Shown: piece by piece, positions 21,816 through 43,331 of the stretch | How positions within the stretch are numbered: position 1 is the first letter of the stretch | Layout: the number at the start of each line of letters is the position of its first letter | NCBI GenBank assembly: GCA_017460105.1 | Contig: JAFUBS010000002.1 | Coordinates: 1-64,000 of the forward strand | Direction: 5' to 3' | Source of the DNA: Candidatus Saccharimonadota bacterium | GTDB lineage: Bacteria > Patescibacteriota > Saccharimonadia > Saccharimonadales > Saccharimonadaceae | Length of the DNA stretch: 64,000 bases | Notes under the pieces: model-generated | Told to the model about the DNA's origin: nothing | The model's database searches: none | The model's input: the letters and a program-made list of their open reading frames with translations, nothing else | Position numbers and translations under genes: made by a program

Positions 21816-21854
21816 ATTTATATTATATGATATAATCGGAATATTAACAAATTA

Positions 21855-21944
21855 ATATCAAGAAATGGGATAGGGAACGGCCCTGTGACCCCATACCAAC
21901 CTACTATCAGCAAGGTGGTAATTCCGACCAGAAAGGAAAGATAT
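21855..21944 (+). promoter_or_regulatory. compact SAM-I (S-box) riboswitch controlling metK
   Basis: The leader follows the S-box consensus in order: ATCAAGA, then a P2 stem ATGGG/CCCAT (21865-21869, 21890-21894) enclosing TAGGGAACGGCCCTGTGAC, then CCAACC, a very short P3 (ACCT/AGGT), and GGTGGTAATTCC forming P4 (TGGT/ACCA). P1 is ATATC (21855-21859) with GATAT (21940-21944), whose 3' strand includes the first bases of the metK ATG at 21943 and adjoins the AAAGGAAAG SD. Ligand-stabilised P1 would block initiation, i.e. translational feedback by SAM. The identification rests on motif order and the metK context. Confidence 0.8.
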
Positions 21945-22908
21945 GTTCTACAGAACAGCGGAGAGCGTTTCTCCAAAACACCCAGATAAACTTTGCGATC
22001 AGATTAGCGATGCTATTCTTGATGCATATTTGAGCGCCGACCCACAGGCTCGCGTAGCAGCCGAGACTTGCGGAGGGCACGGCGTAGTATTTGTAACGGG
22101 CGAAATTACATCTACGGCAGACGACGTGGATATTCCGGCAATTGTCCACAGAATTGCTGGGGACGATATTGAGGTACATACCAAAGTAGTAAAGCAGTCG
22201 CCAGAAATCGCGGCCGGCGTAGACACTGGTGGTGCGGGCGATCAGGGAATCATGATCGGTTACGCCTGCGACGAGACGCCAGAGTTATTACCACTTGAGG
22301 TGGTTTTATCGCGTCGCTTGAACCAATATATTTTTGAAAAATATCCGTATGACGGCAAGACACAAATTACGATTGCGCCAGACGGAACGATTGACTCTAT
22401 TGTGGCAAGTTTCCAGAATGTACCACATGACGAGTTGGAGAAATTGGTGCGCGAGTTTATCTCTGAGAATAGCTTAACAGGAAAACTGGAACTGCATATC
22501 AACCCGGCAGGGGACTGGAACCAAGGTGGCTTTGATGCCGATACTGGGCTCACTGGGCGCAAATTAATTGTAGATAATTACGGTCCACGCGTAGCGATTG
22601 GTGGTGGCTGTTATTCGGGTAAGGATGCAACCAAGGTGGACCGCTCAGCTGCCTACATGGCGCGAAGAATTGCAGTGGACTATTTGCGAAAACGTCATGC
22701 GCACGAAGTATTGGTGCGACTAGCCTACGCGATTGGTTACGCCGAGCCGCTAGAGAAGACTGTGATTGTTGATGGCGTTGCGGAGGAAATTGAAGGCTAC
22801 GATTTGACACCAGCTGGTATCATCAAGTATTTAGACCTTCGCCGCCCAATTTATGAGCAAACTGCCCGCTATGGTCATTATGGCGAAGGGTTTGGGTGGG
22901 ATAAATAG
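21943..22908 (+). CDS. metK: S-adenosylmethionine synthase (short form)
   Basis: A 321-residue MetK, making SAM from methionine and ATP. Conserved motifs are SVSPKHPDKLCDQISDAILD, the signature GAGDQGIMIGYA, HINPAGDWNQGGFDADTGLTGRK split, DNYGPRVAIGGGCYSGKDATKVDRSAAY, and the C-terminal end. The family is normally 380-400 residues; here ~60-70 residues are missing, mainly between the N-terminal and signature regions and in the central domain. GHPDK is KHPDK and GGGAFSGKD is GGGCYSGKD. It lies directly behind an S-box riboswitch whose P1 includes the start codon, and a terminator follows. Confidence 0.93.
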   Translation: MFYRTAESVSPKHPDKLCDQISDAILDAYLSADPQARVAAETCGGHGVVFVTGEITSTADDVDIPAIVHRIAGDDIEVHTKVVKQSPEIAAGVDTGGAGDQGIMIGYACDETPELLPLEVVLSRRLNQYIFEKYPYDGKTQITIAPDGTIDSIVASFQNVPHDELEKLVREFISENSLTGKLELHINPAGDWNQGGFDADTGLTGRKLIVDNYGPRVAIGGGCYSGKDATKVDRSAAYMARRIAVDYLRKRHAHEVLVRLAYAIGYAEPLEKTVIVDGVAEEIEGYDLTPAGIIKYLDLRRPIYEQTARYGHYGEGFGWDK

Positions 22909-38670: not shown

Positions 38671-38781
38671 ACAAATGTCAGTGATTTATCACTGCCGCCC
38701 CCTGACTAATAATCAGGGAAACGCAAAAAATAGCAGATTTGTCTGTTATCCCTCCGGAAAGAAATGACCGGAGGGTTTTTC
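38671..38781 (+). ncRNA. ~110-nt structured small RNA, antisense to the mazF-like 3' end
   Basis: From a consensus promoter to a strong terminator (CCCTCCGG/CCGGAGGG then TTTTT, 38750-38780) the transcript folds into four hairpins: CAGTGA-TTTA-TCACTG, CCCTGA/TCAGGG, CAGA-TTTG-TCTG and the terminator. It has no credible open frame. Its last ~35 nt overlap, on the opposite strand, the last codons of the MazF-like gene (38746-39168), so it could base-pair with that mRNA. I do not recognise the family. Regulation of the toxin is inference. Confidence 0.65.
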
Positions 38782-39168
38782 TTTAAATAAAAGAATTTTT
38801 AGTTTATGACAGATGTTTTTGAATTCCGTCTCGGACAATCTGTCAATTTTATTGTAGAGTCTAAATGCGCTATAACTGGATACTTGCGATAGTAATGCGC
38901 ATCTAGTAACGTTGTTGACATTGATAATGCTATACCATGGACCAGATAGATTTTTAGTACTAAGCGGAACACCAAGAAAAGTGGTCGCTCCATATTTACG
39001 GACAACCAATATCGGACGAGAAAACCGTCTGCCTTTACCATTTATTTCTGAGCCTATATTCTCACCTGCCGCATACCACCAAATGTCTCGCTCGTGATAC
39101 GTAATTAATTTACTATTTAGATTGATTTTCTTTTTTAGTTCATTCCATTCGTCAAAGCGTTTTTCCAT
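38746..39168 (-). CDS. MazF/PemK-like toxin family protein
   Basis: A 140-residue protein with a MazF/PemK-type core: RDIWWYAAGENIGSEINGKG, RFSRPILVVRKYGATTFLGVPLSTK, and a later LLSQVSSYSAFRLYNKI. These fit the SH3-like mRNA interferase fold. The ATG at 39168 follows AGGAGGAG and is 7 bp after the dprA stop, so it is in an operon with dprA. No MazE-like antitoxin gene is adjacent. Its 3' end overlaps the antisense small RNA at 38671-38781. Whether the catalytic residues are intact cannot be decided by eye. Confidence 0.7.
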   Translation of the reverse strand: MEKRFDEWNELKKKINLNSKLITYHERDIWWYAAGENIGSEINGKGRRFSRPILVVRKYGATTFLGVPLSTKNLSGPWYSIINVNNVTRCALLSQVSSYSAFRLYNKIDRLSETEFKNICHKLKILLFKEKPSGHFFPEG

Positions 39169-39175
39169 TCTCCTC

Positions 39176-40102
39176 CTAGCGTAATGCCCAGTTGTTGGCG
39201 CCGAGGGAATGGATGCGGCCTTTAATCTCAAGCAAGGTGACGGTTTGATTGAAAACTTCGGACGGAAGTCTGGTGAGTTTCATGATGTCATCACCATTAT
39301 GTGCGCCAGCTGCGATGGACTGGAGAACCTTGGTCTCCTGGTCGTTGTCGCCAATGAGGCCCTTACGGCGAAGGCGGCGCTGTTTCTTGGTATAATCATC
39401 TGGGAATAAAATACGCAAGATGTCGTCTGGCTCTGTGTATGGCGTCGCACCCTCAGTAATGAGCTTGTTGCAGCCCTGGGAATAGGGATTCGTAATATTA
39501 CCTGGGACAGCGAAAACATCTTTGCCCTGCTCTAGTGCATGCGCGGCGGTATTAAGGGTGCCGGAACGGTCTGCGGCCTCTACGATGACCACAATATCTG
39601 ATAGGCCAGAAATAAGACGATTGCGTTCGAGAAAACTAGTCTTGGGGTGAATCTCTGCGCCAGGAGCGTACTCTGAAATAATCGCTCCGCTCTGCTCGAC
39701 GATTTGCCGGGCCACCGATAGGTGCTCGCGTGGATAGATCTGGTCAATCGGCGTGCCGAGTATCGCGACAGTCGTCCCACCAGCATCCAGGCAGGCACGA
39801 TGCGCGATAGTATCAATGCCGTAGGCTAGGCCAGAGACGATGATGACGCCTTTCTTCGCAAGTCTGGAGGCAAGGTCATAGGCGACTTCTTCGCCGTATT
39901 TAGTATTGTGGCGCGAACCGACAATGGCGACAGTCTTGGGGCGGAATGGTTTGCCATTTTTTACCACATTTTCGGGCAATTTGCCACGAATATACAATGT
40001 TTTAGGCGTAAGCGCAATGGCATTTAACACCTCTGTAAAATCTTGCTCCAGGGGTGAAAATTGGTTGATTTTTTCAAAAAAGTGTGAAAAAGTTGTTGAC
40101 AT
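39176..40102 (-). CDS. dprA: DNA processing protein DprA
   Basis: A 308-residue DprA (Smf), the RecA-loading single-strand binding protein of natural transformation. The Rossmann-fold core is intact: VAIVGSRHNTKYGEEVA, IVSGLAYGIDTIAHRACLDAGGTTVAILGTP split, FLERNRLISGLSD, VVEAADRSGTLNTA and VFAVPGN. A C-terminal winged-helix part follows (~245-305). AGGAG lies before the ATG. The start codon overlaps the -35 box of the divergent ncRNA promoter, so the two outputs may compete. Confidence 0.95.
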   Translation of the reverse strand: MSTTFSHFFEKINQFSPLEQDFTEVLNAIALTPKTLYIRGKLPENVVKNGKPFRPKTVAIVGSRHNTKYGEEVAYDLASRLAKKGVIIVSGLAYGIDTIAHRACLDAGGTTVAILGTPIDQIYPREHLSVARQIVEQSGAIISEYAPGAEIHPKTSFLERNRLISGLSDIVVIVEAADRSGTLNTAAHALEQGKDVFAVPGNITNPYSQGCNKLITEGATPYTEPDDILRILFPDDYTKKQRRLRRKGLIGDNDQETKVLQSIAAGAHNGDDIMKLTRLPSEVFNQTVTLLEIKGRIHSLGANNWALR

Positions 40103-40124
40103 TTTTTCTCCTGTGTGATATAAT
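40096..40124 (+). promoter_or_regulatory. consensus promoter of the dprA-topA ncRNA
   Basis: TTGACA and TATAAT with exactly 17 bp between. It is the strongest promoter match in the window. It includes the complement of the dprA start codon. Confidence 0.85.
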
Positions 40125-40130
40125 CGGAAC

Positions 40131-40460
40131 AGTTAGGGCACAAAAAATGCTCTAGACCGCACCTAAATAAGTTATAATTTCACTATACTGATTTTAAGTA
40201 TAGCAGAAATTGCGTGCTTTTGAAACCCTTTCGGGCAATAAATTTCTTCATGGTTTATTGTTATAAGTATTACCTCCACTTTGAAAGGCCCCTTCGAAGG
40301 CATAGCAATCCCTCTAACCGGCGGGCCCCAATTATTGTGTGAGGTGGGTCGCGCTTCCGGGGTTCACCCGGTATAGTAGTGAAGAGTTAGAGGGCCAAAA
40401 TACCCCCATGCATTAGGTGATGCCCACCCTTACCTAATCGTGGGGGTATTTTGGTATTTG
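40131..40460 (+). ncRNA. ~330-nt structured non-coding RNA between dprA and topA
   Basis: Between the consensus promoter and a large terminal hairpin there is no credible open frame but many helices. AATTTC.CTATACT/AGTATAG..GAAATT spans 40176-40212. CCC-TTTC-GGG follows. CAATAAA/TTTATTG encloses ~11 nt near 40236-40260. CCCTCTAAC (40310-40318) pairs with GTTAGAGGG (40386-40394) around a GC-rich inner domain. The 3' end is CCAAAATACCCCCA/TGGGGGTATTTTGG (40395-40454) with an inner ATTAGGT/ACCTAAT. I could not match it to tmRNA, RNase P RNA, SRP RNA or 6S RNA signatures. Confidence 0.7.
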
Positions 40461-40483
40461 ACAAAGCTTATACAACGAAAGAG

Positions 40484-40565
40484 GCCCCGACACATGATCG
40501 GGGCGGTAGAAGACTAGTAGCCAAACAATGATGGCTGTAGCAAGATGCTACGACTGGCTATTTGG
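40484..40565. other. nested hairpins downstream of the ncRNA and small gene
   Basis: GCCCCGA/TCGGGGC (40484-40504). Then TAGCCAAA/TTTGGCTA encloses GTAGCA-AGA-TGCTAC. The second probably terminates the minus-strand gene at 40566-40757. Confidence 0.55.
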
Positions 40566-40757
40566 CTATTTGGAGCGTTCGACGAACTTTAAGATATCCG
40601 GAGAAATACATTTACCGTGGGCTGAATCCACGAGCTGAGTGACGTAGTCATACAACTCTTTTGAGATTCCATCTTTGGAAAATTCAGACCTTTCGGTAAC
40701 GACATCGGTCGTATTTTCCGATTTCTCTCCAATGCTAGTACCCTTCTTTCTAAACAT
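40566..40757 (-). CDS. small hypothetical protein
   Basis: A 63-residue protein (MFRKKGTSIGEKSENT..., ending DSAHGKCISPDILKFVERSK). The ATG at 40757 is preferred: AGGAGGG lies eight bases upstream and TATAAT a little further. A GTG nine bases earlier would be too close to the SD. It is charged, with no membrane segment. It lies between the ncRNA and topA on the other strand and ends in a strong hairpin. Function unknown. Confidence 0.6.
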   Translation of the reverse strand: MFRKKGTSIGEKSENTTDVVTERSEFSKDGISKELYDYVTQLVDSAHGKCISPDILKFVERSK

Positions 40758-40853
40758 AATGTTCACCCTCCTATATCTCTATTATAACATTAAAGGTATG
40801 ATTTTGCAAGGGATGGTTGGTTCGTGCTTGACAGGTGTGTTATTATTATATAT

Positions 40854-43331
40854 ATGCCAAAGAACTTAGTGATCGTGGAGAGCCCAGCAAAGGCTCATAC
40901 TATTGAAAAATACCTTGGTGCTGACTACAAAGTACTAGCGTCGGTTGGGCATATCCGAAAGGATACCAAGGTAGATAAGTCTACTTTTGATGTCACGTAT
41001 GAAATAGATCCTGGGCACAAATCCATCATCGCTGAGTTAAAAAAGGAGGCTCGTGCCGCTGACAAAATCTGGCTCGCGACGGATGAAGACCGCGAAGGGG
41101 AGTCAATTTCGTGGCATCTGTCAGAAGTTTTGAAGTTGCCGAAGGATACAGCACGTATTACTTTTCATGAGATTACAAAGCCAGCGCTACTAAATGCGAT
41201 TCAGAATCCACGCGTAGTAGATATGGATATGGTTGCCTCGCAGCAAGCCCGGCAGACGTTGGATATGCTGGTAGGTTATGATTTATCTGATATCGTACGA
41301 CGCAAAGTGCCAGGGGCGGTGTCGGCAGGACGCGTGCAGAGTCCAGCGCTGAGACTCGTCGTCGAGCAGGAGAAAAAAATCGAAAAGTTCGAAGGCAAAG
41401 CCAGTTTTAAGGTGACTGGGGAATTCGCGACGAAAAATGCCCCGAGTTCAAGCACATCGTTTGCGGCTGCATACGACGGGACCCCGCCAGACAACGAGGC
41501 TGCCGCCACCGAACTTTTGCAGTCCTTAGCCGGCGCCGATTTCGTAGTGGAGGATGTCGAGGAAACCGAGGGAACGAAGGCCAATCCTGTGCCATTTACC
41601 ACTGCCGCATTACAGATTGAGGCCAACGCCAAGCTAGGATTCTCTTCACGCACCACGATGAGCGCAGCGCAAGGCTTGTATCAGGCTGGTCTCATTACTT
41701 ATCACCGTACAGACTCCCTCAACTTATCGTCTCAGGCGATTGGGGCGATTTCTGGGTATATTAAGGATACTTTTGGCGCGAATTATTTGAAAGTGCGTCA
41801 TTTTAAAACTAAAGACGCGTCGGCGCAGGAAGCTCACGAAGCTATTCGCCCAACGGATGTTTCGCGTCTGTCGGCAGGGAAGAATAATTACGAAAAACGC
41901 TTGTACGAACTTATTTGGGCGCGCACTGTCGCAACACAGATGGCAAATGCCAAAGTCGCCAAGACTGCCATTAGGATAAAGGCCACTTCAGACTCGGCGA
42001 GGGTATTTCGGAGCGCGGCAGCGCGAGAATTAGCGCGCGAGCCCCGTGGCGACGGGAGCGAGCGACGCGACCCGAGCGAGTCTGATGCGGCCTTTATTGC
42101 CAAGGGCGAGGTTGTCATCTTTGACGGGTTTCTGAAGGTATACGGTAAGAGTAAGGATCTTGAACTTCCGCATGTAAGTAAAGGCGACAAGATGGATTGT
42201 CTTTCGCTCAAGGCTCGTCAAACCTTTGCCAAACCACCAGCTAGATATACGGAAGGTTCGCTAGTAAAGAAACTAGAAGAGCTAGGAATTGGACGTCCAT
42301 CTACTTACGCATCGATTATGTCTGCGATTCAGGCACGCGGTTACGTTATCAAGGGCGAATCCGAGGGGAGTATGCGCGACATAGTAGAACTCAGCGTAGA
42401 ACTCGGCGGTTCGGCAAATACAGGCGCCCCATCGGCCAAAAAACCAGAAGTGGTGCGTAGCGTTGTGCAAGAGAAATACGGCGCCAATAAGGGCCGCCTA
42501 GTGCCGACGCCGATTGGTGAGCTTGTGGCGGGATTTTTGACGGAAAACTTCAAGAACATTGTAGATTATAAGTTTACGGCAAATATCGAGAAGGATTTGG
42601 ACCTGGTAGCTGACGCCAAACTAGAGCGCGTGAAGATGCTAAGGGATTTCTACGGACCATTCCACGATACCGTCTTGATTGCAAACGGAGTGGAGCGATA
42701 TAACAACGCACGCTTGCTCGGTCATCATCCGGAGAGTGGATTGCCAATTTACGCTAAAATCGGCAAGACTGGTGGCTTTATCCAGCTTGGTGAAAACGAG
42801 AAAGAGTCCGGCGAAAAACCACGTTTTGCGCCTCTACCGGCGAGAAAGAGCGTGAAGACCGTGACTCTAGAACAGGCATTAAAACAGCTAGCGTTGCCGG
42901 CCTTGCCGAGGGAACTGGGCAAAGCGAAAGACGGAGCAATACTAATTGCCGCAAACGGACCGTTTGGGCCGTATCTGAAAGCTGGAAAATACAATGTGCC
43001 ACTGGGCGATTTGGACCCATACACTGTGACTCTAGAAGAGGCTTTACCACTCTATCAGAAGAAGATAGATTCCATGATTGCGGACTGGGGTGATATTCAG
43101 ATTATCAATGGAGCTTACGGACCGTACGTAAAGGGGCCAGGACGTCGCAACAATGCAAAAATTCCGAAAGATGTAGACCCGAAGACCATCACAAAAGAGC
43201 AGGCAGAAGAAATGCTCAAAAACAAGCCAAAGACTACACGTCGTGGTGTACGTGGTGGCAGGAAAAAGGGTGCTACAAAGACCAAAAAATCAGCTAGCGC
43301 CAAGACATCAAAGAAGACTACAAAAAAGTAA
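40854..43331 (+). CDS. topA: DNA topoisomerase I
   Basis: An 825-residue type IA topoisomerase relaxing negative supercoils. The Toprim domain has VIVESPAKAHTIEKYLG and ATDEDREGESISWHL. The catalytic tyrosine lies in the GLITYHRTDS segment, and GRPSTYASIMSAIQARGYV marks domain IV. Instead of Cys4 zinc fingers the C-terminus has repeated DPYTVTLEEAL / GAYGPYVKGP modules and a Lys-rich tail. A 96-bp palindromic element (41989-42084) adds a 32-residue Arg/Ser-rich in-frame insertion (FRSAAARELAREPRGDGSE). TTGACA precedes the start, and the ATG at 40854 has no SD. Confidence 0.95.
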   Translation: MPKNLVIVESPAKAHTIEKYLGADYKVLASVGHIRKDTKVDKSTFDVTYEIDPGHKSIIAELKKEARAADKIWLATDEDREGESISWHLSEVLKLPKDTARITFHEITKPALLNAIQNPRVVDMDMVASQQARQTLDMLVGYDLSDIVRRKVPGAVSAGRVQSPALRLVVEQEKKIEKFEGKASFKVTGEFATKNAPSSSTSFAAAYDGTPPDNEAAATELLQSLAGADFVVEDVEETEGTKANPVPFTTAALQIEANAKLGFSSRTTMSAAQGLYQAGLITYHRTDSLNLSSQAIGAISGYIKDTFGANYLKVRHFKTKDASAQEAHEAIRPTDVSRLSAGKNNYEKRLYELIWARTVATQMANAKVAKTAIRIKATSDSARVFRSAAARELAREPRGDGSERRDPSESDAAFIAKGEVVIFDGFLKVYGKSKDLELPHVSKGDKMDCLSLKARQTFAKPPARYTEGSLVKKLEELGIGRPSTYASIMSAIQARGYVIKGESEGSMRDIVELSVELGGSANTGAPSAKKPEVVRSVVQEKYGANKGRLVPTPIGELVAGFLTENFKNIVDYKFTANIEKDLDLVADAKLERVKMLRDFYGPFHDTVLIANGVERYNNARLLGHHPESGLPIYAKIGKTGGFIQLGENEKESGEKPRFAPLPARKSVKTVTLEQALKQLALPALPRELGKAKDGAILIAANGPFGPYLKAGKYNVPLGDLDPYTVTLEEALPLYQKKIDSMIADWGDIQIINGAYGPYVKGPGRRNNAKIPKDVDPKTITKEQAEEMLKNKPKTTRRGVRGGRKKGATKTKKSASAKTSKKTTKK
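41989..42084 (+). repeat. palindromic element inserted in frame in topA
   Basis: The ends CAGACTCG and CGAGTCTG are perfect complements. Total 96 bp, i.e. 32 codons. Internal hairpins are GCGC-GGCA-GCGC and CCCGT-GGCG-ACGGG. A 49-bp internal stretch is identical, on the other strand, to the intergenic copy at 60994-61179. Confidence 0.85.

Follow-up and report, generated by a model that had tools for sequence, protein, structure and literature searches.

In S. aureus, RNAIII, which is large and structured, and the sRNAs with C-rich motifs carry C-rich loops that are complementary to Shine-Dalgarno sequences. In Bacillota and Actinomycetota, raiA/ModT (RF03072) is an independent structured RNA, about 200 nt or longer, that occurs in >2,500 species, has a strong consensus sigma promoter, pseudoknots and highly conserved single-stranded nucleotides, and often lies beside the competence gene comFC (PMC11706538, PMC11751092). 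On the phage side, RNA anti-CRISPRs (Racr, solitary repeat units) provide a case in which phages encode isolated copies of the recognition hairpin of a host RNA (PMC10651486). The RNA described here comes from the window, the whole 64,000-nucleotide stretch that was analysed (Candidatus Saccharimonadota bacterium, a minute parasite; GenBank assembly GCA_017460105.1, contig JAFUBS010000002.1, positions 1 to 64,000). It shares no family, function or system with known ones; large structured ncRNAs of unknown function are, as a kind, already known.

The gene (Table 1) had been singled out in a first-pass annotation as a highly structured RNA of about 330 nt, a description borne out by its fold energy, its homologues and strong covariation among them. 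From position 40131, 340 nt of sequence have a predicted fold energy of -121.1 kcal/mol; dinucleotide shuffles give -89.5 +/- 6.1 (z = -5.2), and 0/100 shuffles equal the energy of the native sequence. Its sigma70 promoter is the only 12/12 site within 39000-41500, and the -35 box does, as stated earlier, overlap the dprA start codon. Across 155 homologues the -35 box reads TTGACA in 99, TTGACT in 41 and TTGACG in 12, the -10 box is TATAAT in 104 and the spacer is 17 nt in 153, counts that come from a relaxed promoter pattern itself biased to such sites. The terminal stem and its inner stem are likewise present, T-runs follow the terminal hairpin in relatives, and the claim that the gene holds no open frame stands, the longest frames inside it being 42-43 aa; indels between homologues have lengths that are not multiples of three. 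Conserved promoter, terminator, covariation and lack of a frame together mark a stand-alone structured ncRNA.

Table 1. Coordinates of the RNA gene and of its parts in the window.
Feature	Position	Strand	Basis or remark
RNA gene, predicted transcript	40131-40460	+	inferred ends: 5′ at 7 nt past the -10 box, 3′ beyond the terminal hairpin
sigma70 promoter TTGACA-17-TATAAT	40096-40124	+	12/12 consensus; -35 TTGACA 40096-40101, 17-nt spacer, -10 TATAAT 40119-40124; TG before the -10
dprA start codon (CAT)	40100-40102	-	partly covered by the -35 box
P1, 5′ hairpin (TTAGGGCA/TGCTCTAG)	40133-40155	+	MFE fold; variable sequence
Module A, first C-rich segment CGCACCTAAATAA (CGCACCTTATACCCCC in other genera)	40158-40170	+	homologue comparison, viral copies; near-invariant
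P2 hairpin CTATACT/AGTATAG	40183-40203	+	MFE fold
P3, long helix and inner hairpin	40209-40309	+	covariation of counterpart
Second C-rich segment TTACCTCCACTTT	40270-40282	+	in P3 loop
P4, closing helix CCCTCTAAC/GTTAGAGGG	40310-40394	+	covariation; strands 40310-40318 and 40386-40394
P5 helix	40320-40355	+	40320-40328 with 40346-40355, around invariant GTGTGAGGTGGGTC segment containing GGTGGG
Variable hairpin TTCCGGGG..CCCGGT	40356-40371	+	
Terminal hairpin, terminator-like	40395-40454	+	fold; stem 40395-40414 with 40436-40454
Hairpin C, apex AGGT-GATGCCCACCCTT-ACCT (= AGGTGATGCCCACCCTTACCT)	40415-40435	+	inner stem of terminal hairpin; loop 40419-40431

No confident counterpart was found among described families. 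Rfam 15 gave no match at the locus at the gathering threshold, and only chance matches of miRNA type at E <= 10, in keeping with the unknown class first assigned to it; the confident Rfam match that the first-pass annotation had named as refuting it did not turn up. RNase P RNA and tmRNA resemble this RNA in size, in single copy and in having their own promoter and terminator; however, both are present elsewhere in the same genome (G000), which upholds the earlier view that the RNA is neither. RNase P RNA (RF00010) has its sole match in the genome at C4:10944-11279 (222.9 bits) and none at the locus, tmRNA (RF00023) has a full-length match at G000:C4:14756-15110, and ARAGORN found no tmRNA in the window. 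The exclusion of SRP RNA and 6S held too: neither SRP RNA (RF00169, RF01854; controls positive) nor 6S RNA (RF00013) had a match above cut-off in 20 Saccharibacteria genomes. This very absence is what could be said for a highly derived SRP RNA or 6S that the models miss, an explanation that we regard as very improbable. Nothing of these families appeared at E <= 10 at the locus or at E <= 1 in four other homologues, and the RNA has a multi-helix plan (P3/P4/P5), as against the long hairpin with a central bubble of 6S. None of its conserved blocks fits SRP domain IV or the 6S bubble as these are generally described. In the related phylum Parcubacteria, moreover, both ffh and ffs are absent (PMC4508563), so lack of an SRP is not unusual in this radiation.

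The RNA and raiA/ModT are both stand-alone, strongly promoted, highly conserved RNAs near a competence gene, a resemblance in features with no sign that the RNA belongs to that family. Here the neighbour is dprA (pth and topA further away), the domain plan includes a terminator hairpin with an invariant loop, and no sequence or covariance match between the two RNAs was found. RF03072 had no match above cut-off in 20 Saccharibacteria genomes, a result to be read with the fact that its control matched nowhere either, and none at E <= 1 in four divergent homologues. We know of no phage copies of raiA modules.

The first-pass annotation had placed the RNA between dprA and topA, which is correct for the window and fails as a general rule, the conserved neighbour being dprA only: topA lies downstream only in the window's genus, and the downstream gene differs elsewhere. 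No fixed downstream gene in the same transcript, as a riboswitch or cis-leader would have, was found, and the RNA ends in a terminator-like hairpin. Upstream, dprA is divergent in 199/220 loci with enough upstream sequence, which, with the overlap of its start codon and the -35 box, is what would make the RNA a cis-regulator of dprA by transcription from the divergent promoter. However, about 20 loci of the family keep the RNA where dprA is missing (pth adjoins it in several of those read), and several other families also keep it without an adjoining dprA, some with topA in dprA's place. The RNA is retained where dprA is absent and is therefore not a cis element of dprA, so that this role, largely refuted as the main function, deserves hardly any weight. 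On the far side of dprA in the window, a PemK/MazF-like toxin gene (38746-39231, minus strand; PF02452, E 1.3e-7) adjoins it with no obvious antitoxin alongside; such a gene lies near the RNA in only 5/239 loci.

The first-pass annotation had also proposed a search for covariance in other Saccharibacteria, whose outcome was strongly positive: 26/49 base pairs carry both-sided compensatory changes, a level matched by no shuffle. The 5′ and 3′ domains were aligned separately because all types aligned together yielded a poor consensus fold. In the 5′-domain alignment (A3; 33 non-redundant loci from other genera of the family and from family f26), which covers P1, P2, P3 and the inner P3 hairpin, 90.6% of cells are paired, 15/27 pairs change on both sides, and the covariation score is 0.377 vs. 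0.173 in shuffles (0/500 reach 0.377); slid control versions are 28-43% paired. The counterpart of P3 has compensatory changes in 10/11 pairs with 97% of cells paired, that of P1 in non-window genera is 85.5% paired with both-side changes in 2/6 pairs, and that of P2 is 100% paired, though nearly invariant. In the 3′-domain alignment (A2; 34 loci, the window's genus included), P4, P5 and the stem of hairpin C are together 97.9% paired with both-side changes in 11/22 pairs (0/500 shuffles). Within it, P4 and P5 each have 9 pairs of which 4 change on both sides, with 99 and 95.8% of cells paired, respectively, and the stem of hairpin C has compensatory changes (columns 147-150). RNAalifold, unprompted, recovers P3, P4, P5 and hairpin C. 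By this comparison the predicted MFE fold is only partly right, as the covariation-supported helices P4 and P5 nest around the invariant GAGGTGGGTC segment. In many other genera a large multi-helix insertion between P4 and hairpin C replaces the variable/P5 hairpin. In every sequence, the GUUAG of P2 is also able to pair alternatively with the CUAAY immediately before P4, a possible switch.

Three C-rich single-stranded segments are near-invariant, CACCUUAUACCCCC, UACCCUCCACU and loop C (which holds UGCCCACC), the 13-nt loop C being so throughout the family, and in hosts and phages alike the loops are conserved far beyond base-pairing needs, whereas the stems vary yet stay complementary. GGTGGG, the complement of the CCCACC of loop C, occurs upstream of that loop in 169/174 distinct homologues vs. 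3% of shuffles; it falls within the P5 region in the genus of the window, and close to P4 in the others. One locus (L361) keeps loop C and lacks GGTGGG. This suggests that loop C may pair with GGUGGG as a pseudoknot, a pairing beyond proof by covariation because both partners are too invariant. In L015 and L068/L154 the 3′ terminal hairpin is followed just downstream by a tandem duplicate with its own stem. In other families (L353-L371) the P3 strand reads GTTTTAGAGCGTGC...GCGCTCTAAAAC. Its first 10 bases are identical to those with which many type II CRISPR repeats begin, probably a coincidence.

A DNA search found homologues in 86/150 relatives, and an iterated profile recovered the RNA at or near full length in each of the 70 loci used, which include two from a different family of the order. 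Scanning GTDB contigs with a 21-mer of the 3′ hairpin gave at least 116 matches, nearly all Saccharibacteria among the matches listed. A search of 295 genomes from the class for the 13-nt loop GATGCCCACCCTT found it, usually once, in 147 that belong to the window's family, in one of f26 and in no other, and the reversed pattern, as a control, occurs in 3; extra 13-mers in four host genomes (G222, G280, G282 and G331) have no stem and were set aside as chance. A covariance model (R1) built from the 3′ domain matched 170/175 genomes within the window's family, 29/88 from the remaining families in the order and 0/32 in other orders of the class. Copy number is almost always one per genome; in the window, whose sequence is among those from which the model was built, R1 has a single match (40304-40435, 109.6 bits). 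Of the divergent matches, 23 were read by eye, and all 23 keep the conserved blocks, namely the CCCTCCAC segment, CTAAYCCCTTTAA or a strand that differs from it by one base, a partner strand of the TTGAAGGG type and the GTGCCCACC loop; the promoter and the 5′ ACCTT..CCC segment are present in 22/23, one locus being cut 5′ by a contig end, and GGTGGG in 22/23. Their apex is CGGTGCCCACCCCCTC in place of GTGATGCCCACCCTTAC. The RNA is, by these marks, spread across the order with two loop types; its length is roughly 250-430 nt. At the level of sequence, then, it is shown to be a core gene in much of the order Saccharimonadales, independent, strongly promoted, structured, noncoding and usually single-copy. 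We consider it almost certainly a real RNA family that had not been described before, and no prior description was found in open-access papers (subscription papers and bioRxiv lay outside the search).

Two modules of this RNA recur as stand-alone copies on viral contigs, many of which have clear tailed-phage genes: the 3′ hairpin with its invariant loop, module C, and the 5′ C-rich module, module A, which comprises the first two C-rich segments and the hairpins that bear them. In IMG/VR, 38 contigs contain GTGATGCCCACCCTTAC, and 34/38 sites have a perfect stem of at least 6 pairs vs. 0.3% of random positions; the stem sequences differ from each other. For the order-type CGGTGCCCACCCCCTC, 34/43 sites (a count that includes the full RNA of L406) have a stem of at least 5 pairs vs. 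0.9% of random positions. Over both loop types, hairpin C has 68 viral sites with a matching stem (chance <1%), and viral copies exist for each host loop type, GATGCCCACCCTT of the window's family and CGGTGCCCACCCCCT of other families. The contigs tested carry genes for terminase, portal, head-maturation protease and tape-measure proteins. Module A in viruses has the form ACCTTATACCCCC, a hairpin, then TACCCTCCACT, with a P3-like helix ending in a T-run; it is separate in L277, L278, L279, L319 and L098, reduced in L280 and permuted in L282. Both modules stand on one viral contig in IMGVR_UViG_3300037069_000499 (L231 with L277), and in L098 a phage-like region carries them as separate neighbouring RNAs. 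These data show tailed phages carrying modules A and C apart from each other, as predicted genes for small RNAs or as elements at mRNA ends. Searched by BLAST, phage and plasmid records gave no match to the RNA, similarity to phages of known host gave only distant matches, and we infer that the hosts of the module-carrying phages are Saccharibacteria.

Some of these loci call for comment. L098 (contig NZ_JAEMNW010000001.1, about 50% GC) belongs to the assembly of an actinomycete, Antrihabitans, and shares sequence with module-carrying viral contigs; the region may be a prophage of the actinomycete or lie on a foreign contig. At first sight it resembled raiA in an actinomycete, a reading rejected because the region is phage-like and has module A and module C RNAs of its own. 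In the viral contig L406 (6838-8370), hairpin C lies beside genes for RecT, a PD-(D/E)XK exonuclease and two methylases, and a full-length copy of the RNA lies about 1 kb from this separate hairpin, which sits on the other strand; that copy is either viral or due to integration next to a host gene or host flank. Other candidate segments in viral contigs were discarded, GTGAGGTGGGTCACGC as coding coincidences only and GTTGTTACCCTCCACT as coincidences except in L406. Downstream of module A, the phage contigs L278 and L280 have repeats, for example GATTAACGTATTAAAGTATCTTAA and AACTGATTGTTACGTCAGAAGTAACAG.

The setting of the viral hairpins bears on what the modules do. They lie within 80 nt of an ORF 3′ end at 38/68 sites vs. 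23% of random positions, just after a -10-like box at 18/68 vs. 4%, and run into a T-run at 17/68. The main rival to the reading that we favour below is accordingly an RNA-end signal common to host and phages, in which hairpin C, and perhaps module A, would act in cis as a terminator, a stabiliser or a signal for processing that some host factor recognises, used by the ncRNA for its own maturation and by phages at the ends of mRNAs or small RNAs, the function of the ncRNA being separate. Besides these positions, it accounts for hairpin C forming the 3′ end of every copy of the ncRNA seen and for the tandem end-hairpin duplicates. However, with essentially a single copy in each host genome instead of one for every gene, hairpin C is no general host mRNA-end signal, and the phage copies of module A are left unexplained. 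We hold it to be possible, if somewhat unlikely.

Two weaker rivals start from the loops. A trans-acting antisense regulator resembling RNAIII, itself large and structured with C-rich loops, would pair with G-rich ribosome-binding sites, and the phage copies would be antisense RNAs or sponges of the same network. The CCUCC of the C-rich loops is identical to the anti-Shine-Dalgarno core, the near-invariant UACCCUCCACU and UACCCCC segments are complementary to G-rich sites, and small phage RNAs carry segments of these types. Pairing with a ribosome-binding site would, however, account for only part of the conserved loops, loop C is not anti-SD, and two distinct loop types are each kept whole; the loops are also longer than those of RNAIII and nearly invariant, and no peptide is encoded. 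Antisense action appears unlikely. Alternatively, the CCCACC of phage hairpin C could pair in trans with host GGUGGG, break the internal pseudoknot and switch the host RNA off, which would use both the near-constant GGTGGG of the host RNAs and the perfect 6-bp complement present in all viral loops. CCCACC would be enough for such pairing, yet phages keep the whole 13-15-nt loop (in scans that required the whole loop and did not sample shorter matches), and the host's own loop C would compete in cis at high local concentration. We regard such disruption as improbable.

The reading that we tentatively prefer is that the RNA scaffolds a ribonucleoprotein, that its modules dock a host factor and that phages copy the modules to capture it. 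The host RNA would fold on itself, the CCCACC of loop C with GGUGGG, into the scaffold, and at modules A and C one or more host factors would dock, the likeliest being RNA-binding proteins or factors associated with the ribosome or RNA polymerase. Phages, by expressing the docking modules alone, would titrate or recruit the same factor, much as RNA anti-CRISPRs mimic CRISPR repeats. Racr are a precedent in that isolated copies of a host RNA's hairpin are borne by phages, but the RNA copied here is a single-copy core ncRNA and no CRISPR repeat. The phage copies mimic an ncRNA hairpin and not a CRISPR repeat, and no Cas context was seen at them. Conservation and covariation, survival of dprA loss, conservation of the loops, the stems around the viral loops, the joint presence of both modules in L098 and on one viral contig, the viral copies of each host loop type and the GGTGGG of nearly all homologues count for docking; against it stand the invariance of loop C and GGTGGG, the lack of GGTGGG in L361, and the many phage hairpins just after stop codons, which fit a cis-acting mRNA-end element equally. 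An order-wide core ribonucleoprotein RNA targeted by phage mimicry, whose protein partner is captured by free-standing modules and perhaps sometimes by a whole copy, is likewise put forward as a tentative account.

The gene adds a large, widely conserved structured RNA to an order otherwise read from protein genes alone. It is kept in reduced genomes of 0.6-1.3 Mb, which suggests that it may have an important role, and the phage copies suggest that it docks something that phages need or must block. Since cultured, transformable Saccharibacteria hosts exist (PMC10633639), deletion and pull-down are feasible. The viral copies are an independent handle, with 13-15-nt loops worth copying across many phages, and make the search for a partner factor concrete, while the module sequence can serve as a tag for Saccharibacteria phages, few of which are known. 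If docking and capture are true, phages and their epibiotic bacterial hosts would be in conflict over a housekeeping RNA outside CRISPR. A structured RNA of a known class was also seen in the window, a SAM riboswitch at 21852-21947 on the plus strand (RF00162, 54.5 bits); biosynthesis is sparse in this genome.
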